In this document: positions 14,977 to 26,632 of the stretch, piece after piece
Layout: each line of letters starts with the position of its first letter
Position numbering within the stretch: position 1 is the stretch's first letter
IMG/VR virus record: IMGVR_UViG_3300035698_020119
Location: 1-28,510 of that record
Length of the DNA: 28,510 nucleotides
Strand: one strand, 5' to 3'
Origin: a virus
Program-made: the position numbers and the translations under genes
Notes under the pieces: generated by a model
The model's database searches: none
Told to the model about the DNA's origin: nothing
The model's input: the letters and a program-made list of their open reading frames with translations, nothing else

Positions 14977-17754
14977 TTAATTAATATTAAAATCTCTTTT
15001 TAATTGTATTTTTCTAGCCAATAATTCAGCAATTCTATTAATATCAGCCTCTTCTCTAATTGTAACATTTCACATATTTATATTAATACTTTGAGAATTA
15101 CTTATTTGATTATTTGGAACGATATTTCAATTATTTTTTGGTACAAATAATTCAGGTCACTTCTCTCAAACAATGTACGGCGATCATCAACTTACAGGTC
15201 ATCAATTAGCTTTAAACTCTGTTCAAACTTTATTTAATTTTTTTACATCGTCACGAGTTCAACTTGAAGTATTTCATCAAAAAAATTTATTTAAACTTTG
15301 CATAGCCTCAATTTGTCTTAATATAGCTTGTCTTTTTGCCTCCATTGCTGTAATGAATACATTTTTTTCGTTTTCAATTTCCTCTAATCTAATATTATAT
15401 TGTTCAGTTTCTAATATTTTTTGTGCTTCTAACTCAATCATTTTAATATTATAGGCATCTGTTTCTAAATCTTTTTTTATTCTTAAAGCCTCAATTTCTT
15501 TATAAACAGTATCAATTTTTTCATTTTTTTCTTTTTGTAATTCATCAAGTTTTCATTGGGTTTCTAATTCAATTTTTTTAACTTTTGATAATGCATCGTA
15601 AATTTCCATTTCATCTAGCTTACTTCAAAGTATATCCTCAGCCAATTGTTTCTCCTCGTTTAATTTAGATATTCTTTCAGTATCTAATACTCATCACTCT
15701 TCTTCTTTTGCTTTTGCCTCAATTTCTTGTATCTCTTGTAAAATATCTTTTCTTCTCTGGAAAATTTGATTTAAACTATCTTGTTTTGTTTCATCAACTG
15801 CTTCATTAAATTCTTTTTTTATATCTCATATTTTTTCAAATAATCAATTCATTTTTTCCTTAATTGCATCAATAGTTTCTATAAACTTTTCTTTAAATCA
15901 TCACATTTTATCATTAATTTTTTGTATATTTTCAGTATATTTATCTTTTAATTTAACCGCCTCCTCTCATAATTTAGTAATTGCTTCTTTTGATTCCATT
16001 CATTTTTCAGCTAATCTTTTTATTTTATCAACAATTTTTCAAATTTCTTGATCAGCAACTTTTCTCATATCTTCTAATTTTTTTGTTATATTTTTTATTT
16101 CCTCAGCTGTTTTTTTTGCTCATCAACTTACTCATCATAAACTTACCTCTATTTCTTGAACACTTGTATTTGTTTTTTTTACACCTTTTTCTAAATTAAT
16201 AAAATAATTATCAATTGTATTATTTTGCGTTTCTAATTCAGCACCTAAATTAACCCATGCTCACTTCAATCAAGATAAATCAGACATTAATCAACCAGTA
16301 AAATCAGACCAATCTTTACTTAATCATTCACTTACATTCATTTCACTAAATCAACTTGAAGTCATTTTCCTCATTCAATCTCAAATCGTATCTAAACTAA
16401 ATCATAATTTTGATAATCATTTATTAATTAAAACTATAAATTGATTAATTTTAGAAATTCAATCAACAACGGCATTTTGAAAAAATACAACAATTTTCTC
16501 TCACATAACTTTGAATAAATCTCAAACCGCCATGACCATAATTTTCATTAATTCAAATCAATGATTCTTTAAAAATTTAAATCCGTCCATAATTCATTTT
16601 ATAATTATAACATCTATTTTTAATAAAGTATAGAAAGCTGTTCAAACTGCTTTTAATCCTGCTATCATTCATTGTAAAATTTTCGCAAAAGTCCACCCCC
16701 ATTTAATAGCTGTTTTTGAATTTCCAAACATTCGCGTTGTTAATGATGAAAATAATGATCATGCAAATTTTAAAACTTCTAAAATTACTGAACCAAACAT
16801 CTTAAAAGCCTCTATAACTAAATAAGTTGTTGCCTGTACAGTTCACATTACTTCATCACTTTCCAAGAAAGTTTTTATTAAATTAGAAATTTCACCTATC
16901 AATGGTACTATTTCTTTGAGAAACATTTTCATTGCAGGCGTTAAACTCTCACTCATAGCCTCCTTAACATCTTTAATGACTGCAGCAAGTTTTGCCTGTT
17001 GTCTTATAAGACTTCAAGCTCATAACCTATACGCTTCTTGTGCGTCAGTTGATTTTTCTAAAATTTGTTTTTGAATATCAAGAGCTTTCGCTTGTTGCAA
17101 AGTTTTTCAAGTTAATTCTGCTATTTGTGCAATTCTAGCATTAAAAATAGGAGAAGATTGGTCAATTACTATTCACATTTGCTTTAATTGTTCAACCTCT
17201 CATAATAATGCTTTTGATAATATTTCGGAAGTTTCTGCTGCGGTATATTGTCAATTACTCCATTCTGATAATGCTCAAGAAAGAGTTGTCATTTCAGTAG
17301 CCATTTTAGCGGATTCCTCTCTTGTAAATTTCATAGGAATAAGAATATCTGCAATATTAGTTGTAGCTTTTATAAATTCATTATTTGTTAAACCCATTGA
17401 AGAAGCAATTGAATTTGCTGTTTCTTCTACTTGTCATCTAAACTCTCATAATACAATATCAGCTTTATTATTAACTAATTCTAACTCTGTAGCAAGTCTT
17501 CATAATTCCACTCAAAAAGAAATTATTTGATGAACGGCAAAAGCTCAAGCAACTGCAACCCCTAAACTTTTCATACTAGTTGACATAGATTTAGTTAAAT
17601 CTTGAGTTTTTACTGACATATCTTTTAATTCTTTTGTTGCGTTTCAAGTCTGTTTTTTAATATTACCTAAATCCTTAGACACTTTTTGCAGGTCTTTACT
17701 CATCTTGTTTTTCGCCTCTAACAAAAGATTAATTTTATAATCAGTACTTGCCAA
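14977..17754 (-). CDS. Tape measure protein (925 aa)
   Basis: Longest gene in the window. The N-terminus is coiled coil (EAKNKMSKDLQKVSKDL), then a membrane-like helix near residue 70 (SMKSLGVAVAGAFAVHQIIS) and the conserved segment FGVELGRLATELELVNNKAD and TGKTLQQAKALDIQKQILEK. Long hydrophobic helices occupy the middle, then charged coiled coils. The end (NMNVTIREEADINRIAELLA) is the usual tape-measure C-terminus. It sets tail length and acts in genome delivery. A TAA lies 4 codons upstream of the first plausible start, so initiation is probably TTG at 17754 (LASTDYKINLLLEAKNK); the first ATG (17703) would drop 17 residues of that conserved start. Length predicts a tail of about 140 nm by the 1.5 angstrom per residue rule. 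Confidence 0.92.
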
Positions 17755-17776: not shown

Positions 17777-18323
17777 TTATTTTCTTTTTAAATTGGATTT
17801 TCTTCTTTGTTCATCTCTTTGTTGTTCAAGTCTTTCATTTTTTCGTTCTAGCATTAACATATCGTAATGTAATGCTAATATATTTTCATCTTGTCTATCA
17901 ATTTCAGATTGTGTACAATGATATAATTCTTTTATAAGTAAATAATCTCTATGCTCTTTTGATATTCATACATTTCATTTAAATGCTTTTTTAAAAGATT
18001 TTAAAATATTATTATTATTGACTGGGATTTTTTATATCTTGAACTTTTTTCAAAATTAAATCGTATTCTATCATACTTAAATTATCAATTTCTTTTTCTT
18101 CAATATTAGTCAACATTTTAACTAAATAATCATTTCAAAATTGCATTTTAATAGGATCAATACTAAAATCAATTTCACCTTTCTCATTCGAAGAAGAATT
18201 ACAATTTGTAAAAATAATTTCATTATATCCCCTGTCAATTTTTCTAGTATAAACTTTTTTAAATATTATTTCTTTTCAAGATGATAATATAATTTTATTT
18301 GTATCTTCTTTATTCTCAATCAT
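17777..18323 (-). CDS. Tail assembly chaperone, frameshift-extended form (gpGT-like)
   Basis: Inferred joined product: residues from the 18323 ATG continue through codon CCC (18026-18024), shift +1 (skipping 18023), and run 18022-17777 to TAA, giving about 181 residues. The downstream part (open 18031-17777) has no ATG until its last third, yet encodes sensible protein: SFKKAFKGNVGISKEHRDYL, then YHCTQSEIDRQDENILALHY and LMLERKNERLEQQRDEQRRK. This resembles the C-terminal T domain of lambda gpGT-type chaperones, and the location between major tail and tape measure genes is where such frameshifts occur. Frame alternatives: +1 at CCC-A or -2 at A-runs just before. Confidence 0.65.
18015..18323 (-). 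CDS. Tail assembly chaperone, short form (gpG-like, 102 aa)
   Basis: ATG at 18323 to TAA at 18015. N-terminal beta part (IILSSGKEIIFKKVYTRKI; GYNEIIFTNCNSS) followed by helices (MQFGNDYLVKMLTNIEEKEI and LSMIEYDLILKKVQDIKNPS), the arrangement of siphophage tail assembly chaperones that coat the tape measure protein before tube polymerisation. It lies directly upstream of the tape measure gene. The frame ends AAT CCC AGT CAA TAA, which overlaps an ORF in the +1 frame encoding the extension domain. Confidence 0.8.
18021..18034 (-). other. Probable programmed frameshift site
   Basis: Minus-strand sequence ATAAAAAATCCCAGTC. In the chaperone frame this reads ATA AAA AAT CCC AGT CAA TAA. Moving P-site tRNA from CCC to CCA (+1) or slipping back 2 nt on the A6 run would both enter the downstream frame, just before the in-frame stop at 18015. 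CCC-N +1 sites are known in other phage tail chaperones. Confidence 0.5.
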
Positions 18324-18415: not shown

Positions 18416-19195
18416 TTATCCTGTATAAGCATTAATATAATGTACTACTCAATCAACCGTTATTTTTATTTTTTTAGCTGTTCATGCTGTTTCAGCTGTA
18501 TCACTTATCATAGCCGAACAAGTATCAAATTCTATAAATGCAACTGCCGCAGGTGTTCTAAAATACATTACTTGATCAAGTGCTGTAGTTCAATTTTCTG
18601 TTCAATATATTAATTGATAACTTCCTGTGATTGCACTATCAAGATGAGTATCTAACCAACAAGATGCAACATGAGTTGCTGTAATTGCTTGTCAACCCTC
18701 TTCGATTAATCAATATAATCAAGCCATAAATGAACTACCTGTTAATGTACCCTCTGATCTTGCTTGACCATAAGCTCCAATTAAAGTACCTCAAGTTAAT
18801 GTAAATGTTGCATCTAATACCGCTGTATTTAAACTTCATGTTAATGATGCTGTACCTGTTGCACTTATTTTACAATCATTATATACTCAATATTGTGCTC
18901 AGCTTGTATTTACTGACTCGTATTTATATTCGTTATTAATTGCAGAAGTTGAGTCGTGATTATGCATTTTTAAAGATTTTTGTGCACTATCATTATCATT
19001 TCTATAAATTTGTCAAATTACTTTTTGATTAACATTTAGATCAGTAACAAATTCAAAATCTGAATCTTGATTTACTAATTCTCTCCCTTTTCAATCTTCA
19101 CAACTAATTATCTGATTAACTAAAATTGTTTCAGAAATTCAATTTAAAACTTCTACTCAAGTTTTACTTTCTGATCATCCATTTTTTATAAGCAT
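18416..19195 (-). CDS. Virion protein, decoration/minor-tail type (259 aa)
   Basis: An N-terminal short region resembles nothing I can name. Central and C-terminal parts are beta-rich (ISATGTASLTGSLNTAVLDA; GGTLIGAYGQARSEGTLTGS) followed by the segment FMAGLYGLIEEGGQAITATH, ISxx CWLDTHLD, and a C-terminal KKIKITVDGVVHYINAYTG. That last strand, with K-I-K-I/V-TxDGxxHYI-x-AY, matches the end of phage virion proteins of the head-decoration/structural type, though here it sits between the major tail protein and the chaperone. It may be a second tube or tail-surface protein. About 17 Gly codons are TGA. Confidence 0.65.
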
Positions 19196-19224
19196 TTTAA
19201 TTTTTTTTATATATATAAATAAAT

Positions 19225-20427
19225 TTAATATCAAGTTGCATTATCGTTTAATAATAATACTTCTATTTGTGCAGAAGTATCAACATCGTATTGTCATGAG
19301 TATCACATAGTTTGCTTAATTATATCATTTGCCGAATCTGTTTTTGTCCATTCTTTAAATCATACTTTCATAAAATCAATAAACATTGAAGGAAAAATTT
19401 GACTAGCTACTAAAGCGGTTACATCATCATTTATTAATTCAAATCTAGTAGCTTTTTTATCGCTATCAATTACATAATTTCTCAAAGTAACTGAATTATA
19501 TAATGCTTCAAAATCTCATTCAGTTGTAAATTGTTGATTATGTAGACTATCAATGTCAGTACTTCAAAAACATTGTATATCAGTAAGATTTTTATTAATT
19601 GCTAATCTAAAGTTTTGCATACATACGGCTGTCGCTGCATTCAAAGCTCATTCAGTTGCTGCAAAATATACATTTGAATCCATTGCTCTAAATGGATTTT
19701 CAGCAGAATAACTAGGTATTTGAGCAGATGCTGTTGCCATTTGTTGTCCCCAATATTCAGCAGAAAATTTTACATAATCCCCAACTTCAGCGGATAATTC
19801 CAAAGTATTCACCATTCAATAAGTTGATGAAACTGCTCCAACTGGATCATCATCATATAAAGTGTATGTTTGATGACTATTATCATTATTTCTACTAAAG
19901 AAATGTCATTTAACTGCAGAAGTTGCTGTAACTCAAACAGTTGCTGTCCGTGTTCAATTTGTCACCGTATCAGCATTTCATAAAGTTCAACTTGTTGTTG
20001 AAACAAAATAATAAGTTGTCAGTGTTCCTCATAAACTTAATATTTTTTTAATTTCTCAAATCCATGTTTCACTTGCAGGAGCTCAAACATAAGCTATATC
20101 TCATCTTGCAGGAGTTCATCACGACGGACTAGGAAGTGTTATACATTGAACTTGATCATAACTTCATAATGCTCAATATAATAAATGTCAAATAAAATCA
20201 TCTCTTGTAATTCCTCATAAAGTAATCTTTGAAAAGTTTTTAGTAGTTGCAGAATCATAAACTTCATCAATTACTCAATATCAACTTGCATCTATTGCTT
20301 CCTCAAATTCAGGTATTAATACTCAAGTTTCTTTTGGAATCCGTACATCAGCGACTGCTATTGTTCAAGCTGTTGACTCTTTTCATAATCAAACTGCGGA
20401 TAATCTTCATATATGTTCGTTTGCCAT
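19225..20427 (-). CDS. Major tail tube protein (400 aa)
   Basis: 400 residues, starting MANEHIGRLSAVGLGKESTA and continuing VADVRIPKETG, the beginning of siphophage tail tube proteins that polymerise into hexameric rings around the tape measure. A conserved stretch HFFSRNNDNSHQTYTLYDDD, then TLELSAEVGDYVKFSAEYWG, is typical. C-terminal half has GDFEALYNSVTLRNYVIDSD and ASQIFPSMFIDFMKVGFKEW. Its length suggests an added surface domain. An AAAAGGAAAATG start provides a weak Shine-Dalgarno. Located upstream of the decoration-type protein and chaperone, as expected. Confidence 0.85.
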
Positions 20428-25193: not shown

Positions 25194-26009
25194 TTATAAT
25201 ATTTTGTATAACATTGTACATCTACACCTTACTCAAGTTGGTGCAAATCAACTGTTTGTAGCTTGATAAAAATAATCAATATCTTTTCGTCATTTATTTT
25301 CGTTTTCTGTATGTTCAGGACGCACTCTTGCATCTTGCACGGTTTGCCATTTCTTTTCTACCTGTCATCAAGCATCTTTATATTTTTTCATTGGTAACCA
25401 GTTCCCATATTCATAAGCCTGTCCCATTTCAGTAACTGCTATTAATTGTGCTCTATTTTTATCAAACAATACACTATTTATTTTTACTATTTCATCCCTT
25501 AATTCTCAATATGTCCAATTTTTATCATATCATTCTTTTATCTTCTCAATTATTTTTAATTTAGTTGTCCTGCTTATACTTCATTTATAATCACTTAAGT
25601 GTTGTACTCAAAATATTTCTTTATATTCTAATCATGCATTACTATTATATATTATTCAATTTTTTTGTAACTTCTCTTTATTTTTATTATATGACCTTTT
25701 ATATCATTTATCAGTTATCTTTTTTATTTGATTTTTCAATTTCTCAATCATCTTATAAACACCCATTTTTGACCAAAATCATCATAAAGGTTCTCAAGTG
25801 GTATCAGGTGGAAGTTCTTTTTCAAAATTTAATGATTGTTGTATATTTATAAGATAATTATAAGACTGTAATACTTTATTTGGATTATTAAATAATTGTT
25901 TTAAATTTCTTAATAAATATTTTTCTTGTTTTCTAAAAGAAGTAACCATTATGTTTTGCATACGTACCTCATTTCTTAATATTCTTCTATAGTTTGCTGG
26001 TATCGGCAT
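25194..26009 (-). CDS. Mu gpF-like minor head protein (271 aa)
   Basis: An N-terminal helical part (MPIPANYRRILRNEVRMQNI; FNNPNKVLQSYNYLINIQQS) is followed by YKEIFGVQHLSDYKGSISRT and the Mu gpF/SPP1 gp7 signature at residues about 221-265: KKWQTVQDARVRPEHTENEN, then a variable piece and GFAPTGVRCRCTMLY, i.e. W-x-T-x-x-D-x-R-V-x-x-x-H followed by C-R-C. In this family it is a minor head protein bound to the portal, required for DNA delivery. Several glycines are TGA. The HNH fragment overlaps its first 23 nt. Confidence 0.88.
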
Positions 26010-26540
26010 CTTTATTATATTTCCAAATAAATCATCAAGCTGTTTTTCTTTTTCATTTACAGACTTTACAAATATGACTATTATTTATTCCTATTTTTCT
26101 TTCTACATCATTCATACTATTCCAAATTTTAATTAATTTTCATTCTTTTGTATATTGAATAATTTTCTTAGATAAATGATTATTTATTCAAAGTCTTCAT
26201 AACATATTTGGTTTTCTTCATAATTCTTTAAAAGAATGTAAATGATTTTCTGAATAAGTATTCCATTCTAAATTATCAACTTTATTATCTTCTTTATATG
26301 ATTTATTGTTCTTTTATTTTCTTTATTTTTTATAAAAGCTTTTCAAACTAATCTATGAATTAATGTTTTTATACTTTTTCAATTTTTACATAAATCAATT
26401 TGTAAATATCATGATGTACATTTTAAAGATTTCAATATTTTTCAACAATGTCATTTTCTAGTTAAACTATATACATTTCATAAATTAGATACTTTATACA
26501 ATCATTCATATCATTTTATATCTTTTCGTATTTCTTTCAT
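25987..26540 (-). pseudogene. Frameshifted HNH homing endonuclease (NUMOD4-HNH-NUMOD1)
   Basis: Two frames make one endonuclease. The first frame (26540-26268) gives KEIRKDIKGYEGLYKVSNLG and NVYSL, a NUMOD4 domain, then LIHRLVGKAFIKNKENKRTI NHI, the start of the HNH. A shift at about 26293 (sequence after NHI reads KKIIKLII then TAG) breaks it. The other frame (26292-25987) continues DNLEWNTYSENHLHSFKELG, the second half of the HNH, then KKIIQYTKEGKLIKIWNSMN and HICKVCKGKRKTAGGFIWKY, a NUMOD1-type DNA-binding end. A one- or two-base deletion explains it. The 3' end runs into the gpF gene. Free-standing, between the portal and minor head genes. Confidence 0.8.
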
Positions 26541-26632
26541 ATTTTTATAGTAATAGTATAAAACATATATTAATGGAAGGAACAATATCTATTACATATT
26601 ATCCCAATTACGCCGCTAAGCAACCTTTTTTT
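26541..26632 (-). other. Untranslated gap between portal and homing endonuclease
   Basis: 92 nt without an ORF. It begins at the portal stop (A9 run), then holds the GC-richest short segment nearby (GGTTGCTTAGCGGCGTAATT). Such a spacer could be part of an old intron or the insertion edge of the endonuclease, but no group I intron core or splice element was recognised. Confidence 0.35.

Follow-up and report, generated by a model that had tools for sequence, protein, structure and literature searches.

A tail assembly chaperone gene in code-25 phages with a predicted +1 frameshift at a conserved sense-codon site

The chaperone locus and its two frames

The DNA analyzed here, hereafter the window, is the whole 28,510-nucleotide stretch of the IMG/VR virus record IMGVR_UViG_3300035698_020119. 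In genetic code 25, where UGA encodes glycine, 86% of it is covered by open reading frames (ORFs) of 100 aa or more, vs. 5% in code 11, in agreement with the code 25 assigned in an earlier note that was made from the sequence alone. Between the tail tube and tape measure genes, the position expected of a tail assembly chaperone, the window carries a short ORF (G) and a second, overlapping frame (T), arranged as follows:

14977 to 17754, minus strand: tape measure protein with a TTG start (phrog_1538 tail length tape measure protein, E 3.8e-10)
17777 to 18031, minus strand: T-like downstream frame, +1 with respect to G, 84 aa
17777 to 18323, minus strand: predicted 181-aa G-T fusion, translated with CCCA as a single step and containing ..DIKNPVNNNNILKS..
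18015 to 18323, minus strand: G-like tail assembly chaperone ORF, zero-frame product of 102 aa in code 25
18015 to 18017, minus strand: zero-frame stop UAA, with two codons between CCC and UAA
18021 to 18026, minus strand: predicted +1 shift site CCC_AGU (P-site CCC 18026-18024, A-site AGU 18023-18021)
18027 to 18033, minus strand: the sequence A_AAA_AAU, including an A6 run at 18033-18028
19225 to 20427, minus strand: tail tube protein, upstream of G (Pfam Phage_tube_2, E 7.5e-10; 72% identical to that of the relative L032)

On the minus strand the G ORF (18323-18015) terminates with GAT ATA AAA AAT CCC AGT CAA TAA, and the last five of these codons are those that the earlier note had read at its end. 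Counted from the start of G to the stop of T, the locus measures 547 nt, i.e., 3n+1, which places T in the +1 frame. The description of the downstream ORF (18031-17777) as a +1 frame devoid of a start codon in its first two thirds was likewise found to be correct, the first ATG, GTG or TTG occurring no earlier than residue 57 of 84, as was its location directly before the tape measure gene, identified by its phrog_1538 match and separated from the end of the T frame by 23 nt. A canonical -1 site of the X_XXY_YYZ type was considered for the window and rejected: A_AAA_AAU is present, but reading in the -1 frame ends after 8 codons without leading to T. A 272-aa ORF (18416-19234, minus strand) sits between the tail tube gene and G in the window, and no homologue of it was retrieved by tblastn among the loci collected at that stage; in L032 the tube gene adjoins G directly, with no such ORF in between.

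Taken alone, the window G protein matched no Pfam entry and no other family convincingly. Its homologues did: Phage_TAC_7 (PF10109) was matched by 27 of 31 (best E 4.3e-7, the curated cut-off not being displayed for these matches) and phrog_166 tail protein by 26 of the 31, and the identity as a tail chaperone assumed in the earlier note holds through these family members. The AF2 model of the window G (pLDDT 88; G and T were modeled as separate chains) had as its best viral fold match the annotated tail assembly chaperone of ‘Caudovirales sp. gcode 4’ (TM 0.74/0.79, 37% identity), while a PDB fold search with the same model returned no match. No convincing match to the T domain was obtained in Pfam or PHROGs, and its model, which consists of helices, is of modest confidence (pLDDT 72).

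Relatives carrying both halves

Searches of IMG/VR seeded with the tape measure protein and the G protein found no relatives, probably because the patterns were back-translated in the standard code, glycine being here mostly encoded by TGA. A tape-measure motif scan with TGA-coded glycines yielded 44 loci, 19 of which match both the window G and the window T by tblastn, and two further scans on T-domain motifs brought to 62 the number of other loci in which profile search recognized both halves, nearly all of them in code 25 and some of them near-copies. All these scans ignored the junction, so the junction statistics given below are not circular. Among GenBank phages no relative of G or T was found by tblastn at E 0.01, a search in which TGA-rich genes are penalized.

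At every locus having both halves, G and T are out of frame and never fused, an arrangement far above chance. This bears on the possibility, named in the earlier note as one that would refute the frameshift, that a sequencing or assembly indel split a single gene. The window does contain, elsewhere, a homing-endonuclease gene broken in frame, and the record may thus carry an indel; however, the out-of-frame halves recur in 62 other loci from many metagenomes with no fused locus among them, which refutes an indel merging both ORFs for the family and leaves it hardly conceivable as the explanation here. The broken gene itself, of HNH type, lies at 25987-26585 (minus strand) between the portal and head-morphogenesis genes; its first part ends near 26270 and the remainder is in another frame, through natural decay or a one-base error of the record.

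The comparison of the locus with related phages, which the earlier note had recommended, showed that the downstream frame is conserved. T is 37-62% identical to the window sequence across 29 relatives, 12 positions are invariant in 30 members, and dN/dS over the whole T domain was below 1 in all 12 pairs considered (range 0.05 to 0.48), with one close pair reaching about 1 when the calculation was restricted to the first 25 T codons. The T frame is under purifying selection. When 18 conceptual G-T fusions were aligned, no gap appeared at the junction, and the conservation of T started at the slip site. Translation of T from a start of its own, which the earlier note had likewise listed as a refuting observation if met in related genomes, could appeal to the ATG, GTG or TTG codons that some relatives do contain within the open T frame; nevertheless, the window and eight relatives (L007, L011, L032, L051, L056, L063, L067, and L074) have none ahead of the conserved T motif, and T is conserved right from the slip site, so that such a start is exceedingly improbable. 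Together with the G homologues, these loci thus carry a conserved out-of-frame extension lacking its own start.

Several observations were made alongside. L005 and L042 are both located on IMGVR_UViG_3300028832_000146 (64439 bases), which holds two different tail modules of the G/T family, each with its own CCC_AGU junction, and represents either two adjacent phages or a chimeric assembly. T-like domains (e.g., IEYIDYRLIKDLYHCSPDELD) occur in two apparently standard-coded phages, L118 (11102-11329) and L122 (10654-11238; 59% G+C), in neither of which the G profile detected a G partner. L002, a relative (portal 58-63% identical), encodes at 827-2422 a large terminase with an apparent intein-like insert (GDMRVNTPKGLVRIDKLSVGD ... 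VYDLEIDNEHCYYVEGLHVHNC). The only genome match for the G/T family was L078, a code-25 phage contig binned into a 2.2-Mb goat-colon MAG (RGIG2002); as no tRNA-Gly(UCA) was seen among 30 of the 53 tRNA matches of this MAG, the contig was probably mis-binned.

The junction and the predicted slip

In the first set of 27 distinct +1 junctions, the overlap invariably contains, toward its end, CCC_AGY (22 sequences) or GGG_AGU (5), and three later loci (L040, L117, and L125) have CCC_AGY as well. The exception is L111, a code-25 member whose +1 junction at the end of G is CCC_UGA, with UGA read as glycine. Overall, 30 of 31 distinct +1 members carry CCC_AGY or GGG_AGU, and the conserved CCC-N that had been proposed as a check is found, in some members with GGG in place of CCC, unlike the A6 run, which most relatives do not keep at the same codon. 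The zero frame runs into its stop at the first to third codon past AGY, leaving one to three codons between CCC or GGG and the stop, as in AAA ATA CCC AGT AAA TAG, AAA ACT CCC AGT AAA TAG, AAA TCT CCC AGC AAA AAG TAA, AAA AAT GGG AGT AAC TAA, and AAG TAT GGG AGT AAA TAA. CCC and GGG were swapped three times on the tree with the XXX_A rule kept.

Seventeen of the 27 junction sequences, less than 80% identical to each other at the nucleotide level, were used as representatives. Besides CCC or GGG, the only invariant letters within 20 nt are AA at -6/-5 and AG at +3/+4. No conserved Shine-Dalgarno-like element was detected upstream in these representatives, and the downstream RNA folds no better than shuffled sequences in 16 of the 17, under a pseudoknot-free folding model. 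A conserved AGY also preserves the first residue of T as Val or Ala, and part of the AGY conservation may hence be due to the T protein itself.

Enumeration of every possible P-site codon within the permissible overlap of each sequence showed that CCC_A or GGG_A is the sole +1 re-pairing common to all 27 overlaps, which strongly supports the +1 slip at CCC-A predicted in the earlier note. A +1 slip two codons upstream, on AAA_A, would give K-I-P-V and is quite unlikely: 25 of the 27 overlaps do allow AAA to re-pair perfectly on AAA, yet this option is missing immediately before the site in L051 (AAA TCT), L072 (AAG TAT), and L074 (AAG ACT), and it leaves unexplained the invariance of a codon that accounts for 2% of proline codons and swaps only to GGG. 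The -2 slip on the A6 run that the earlier note had offered as an alternative would lead into the same +1 frame but add one residue (K-N-I-P-V), tRNA-Asn moving from AAU to AAA, and phage Mu does use -2 (PMC5009743). This re-pairing, however, requires AAA AAT, which only five rows have (the window, L032, L049, L068, and L077); most relatives have AAA ATA, AAA ACT, AAA TCT, AAG TAT or AAG ACT before the site, 11 of 27 rows are without any -2 re-pairing in the permissible overlap, and CCC/GGG_AGY is kept in 27 of 27 regardless, which makes a -2 slip very unlikely and leaves that alternative unsupported. Relatives keep XXX_AGY without a comparable A run, and transcriptional slippage, for which the A6 of the window might have argued, is accordingly implausible in the extreme.

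CCC makes up 35 of 1578 proline codons (2.2%) in the long ORFs of the +1 phages and 2 of 127 in the window ORFs, and in the 70,838 codons of those long ORFs CCC followed by AGY occurs nowhere else, while GGG followed by AGY occurs twice. AGU, instead, accounts for 40% of serine codons in the window (217 of 539) and for 21 per thousand codons in the +1 phages. Serine is commonly encoded by AGU or AGC, so the site is not explained by rarity of its A-site codon, and codon usage gives no indication of a rare or slow A-site codon of the hungry-codon (Ty) type. What the site offers is a rare CCC in the P site, able to re-pair on the overlapping +1 codon (CCC_A to CCA), in front of a sense codon, with no stop in the A site and, under the pseudoknot-free model, no conserved downstream structure. 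No tRNA genes were found on the phage loci examined.

In light of these results, it is highly probable that the window contains a G/G-T tail assembly chaperone gene, read in code 25, in which tRNA-Pro slips +1 from CCC to CCA. The majority of ribosomes would terminate at UAA and release G, while in a minority, with peptidyl-tRNA-Pro on the rare CCC and AGU still undecoded, the tRNA would re-pair one base downstream on CCA and reading would continue in the +1 frame to give G-T (..KNP|VNNNN..). We infer that the slipping tRNA is tRNA-Pro(UGG), in analogy with model experiments. On a synthetic mRNA, AUG-CCC-AGU-U, Escherichia coli tRNA-Pro(UGG) slips +1, yielding Pro-Val rather than Pro-Ser, which that study ascribes to an unstable U34-C3 pair giving way to U34-A4; it also reports, for a CCC-A reporter, 1.5% +1 frameshifting with both tRNA-Pro species and 4.2% without tRNA-Pro(GGG) (PMC8324841). 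We extend this reasoning to GGG, where a U34 tRNA-Gly(UCC) would become perfectly paired by moving to GGA. In lambda, G binds the tape measure protein and G-T recruits tube subunits (PMC5009743); by analogy with gpG/gpGT, the G of the window may coat the tape measure protein and its G-T may recruit tail tube subunits.

The same T domain is reached by predicted -1 slips in sister lineages, with heptamers assigned by inspection:

A_AAA_AAC: L013 and L041, probably also L113 and L120
U_UUG_GGU: L053, L059, and L070
A_AAC_CCC or C_CCC_CCN: L043, L058, L061, L064, L069, L075, and L114
A_AAA_AAG: L121
CCC_CUG, of less clear mechanism: L037, L054, and L119

A canonical X_XXY_YYZ leading to T is thus found in L013 and L053, whereas the CCC_CUG of L037, L054, and L119 is a non-canonical heptamer on which A-site re-pairing would fail. 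Five changes in the predicted direction of the shift are required on a 50-row tree, three of them being forced by well-supported branches, and a single change sufficed on a smaller 35-row tree, so the number depends on sampling. L114 (AAC CCC AAA, -1) stands next to L032 (AAT CCC AGT, +1) on the tree, in a weakly supported pairing.

These patterns allow a broader reading, which is possible although somewhat doubtful. As UGA encodes glycine in code-25 phages and CCC_UGA would provide no pausing stop, the shift may have come to use a minimal sense site without stimulators, CCC/GGG_AGY; this could work since host U34 tRNAs would mainly read CCC (and GGG) and pair perfectly one base further on, and the direction might flip between +1 and -1 around the same codon in the course of evolution.

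Comparison with known systems

Tailed phages are known to reach G-T by -1, -2 or +1 shifts, +1 being a known minority type, and the archaeal virus HSTV-2 likely uses a +1 tail chaperone shift (PMC5009743); the training set of actinophage frameshifts of PRFect includes 350 forward cases (PMC10885494). The earlier note had described the type of shift as unusual: its reading as +1 stands, but the direction is less unusual than it had supposed. Both +1 tail-chaperone shifts and slips on CCC are thus already known. What appears to be new is a predicted, stop-independent XXX_AGY sense-codon site with no visible stimulators, a swap rule for the P-site codon, a reversible direction, and the occurrence in recoded phages, to which the identity with the synthetic CCC-AGU mRNA used in published cryo-EM studies of +1 slippage can be added (PMC8324841). 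The words ‘frameshift’ and ‘chaperone’ are absent from the main text of the paper on phages of Absconditabacteria and Gracilibacteria (PMC10746230), and no frameshift site in phages of code-25 bacteria was found described in the open-access literature; as the search covered open-access literature only, priority is not proven.

The 62 loci constitute a natural experiment, in which a homologous gene pair, with much the same proline codon, is accompanied by predicted slips in both directions and by P-site swaps that obey a re-pairing rule, and the CCC-AGU model mRNA of ribosome structural studies gains in them a counterpart from nature. In practice, T will escape gene callers in these phages.

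The arrangement resembles lambda gpG/gpGT and its P2/Mu-type equivalents in its position between tube and tape measure genes, its short Phage_TAC_7 G, and a T in another frame near the end of G, but lambda shifts by -1 and Mu by -2, while the family of the window is predicted to shift by +1 at CCC/GGG_AGY. With HSTV-2 and the actinophages it would share access to the second half by +1, and it differs from them in that the phages are recoded and one site motif is conserved. The Listeria phages PSA, A118, and A500 shift +1 at CCC_UGA in the tail shaft gene and, in PSA, also at CCC_UCC in the capsid gene. These sites share with the one predicted here a rarely used CCC as the +1 slip codon, in genes for structural proteins of low-GC phages. 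A stop codon is part of the Listeria tail site and a pseudoknot accompanies the capsid site, whereas the A-site codon is here a sense codon and no structure was seen; the CCC_UGA of L111 has the very letters of the Listeria tail-shaft site, but its UGA is glycine and no stop. A further likeness is with the synthetic mRNA, which the CCC_AGU of the window matches in all six nucleotides and in the predicted residues, Pro-Val vs. Pro-Ser; that construct was designed for laboratory work with E. coli and, in the cited passages, is not presented as a natural programmed site (PMC8324841).
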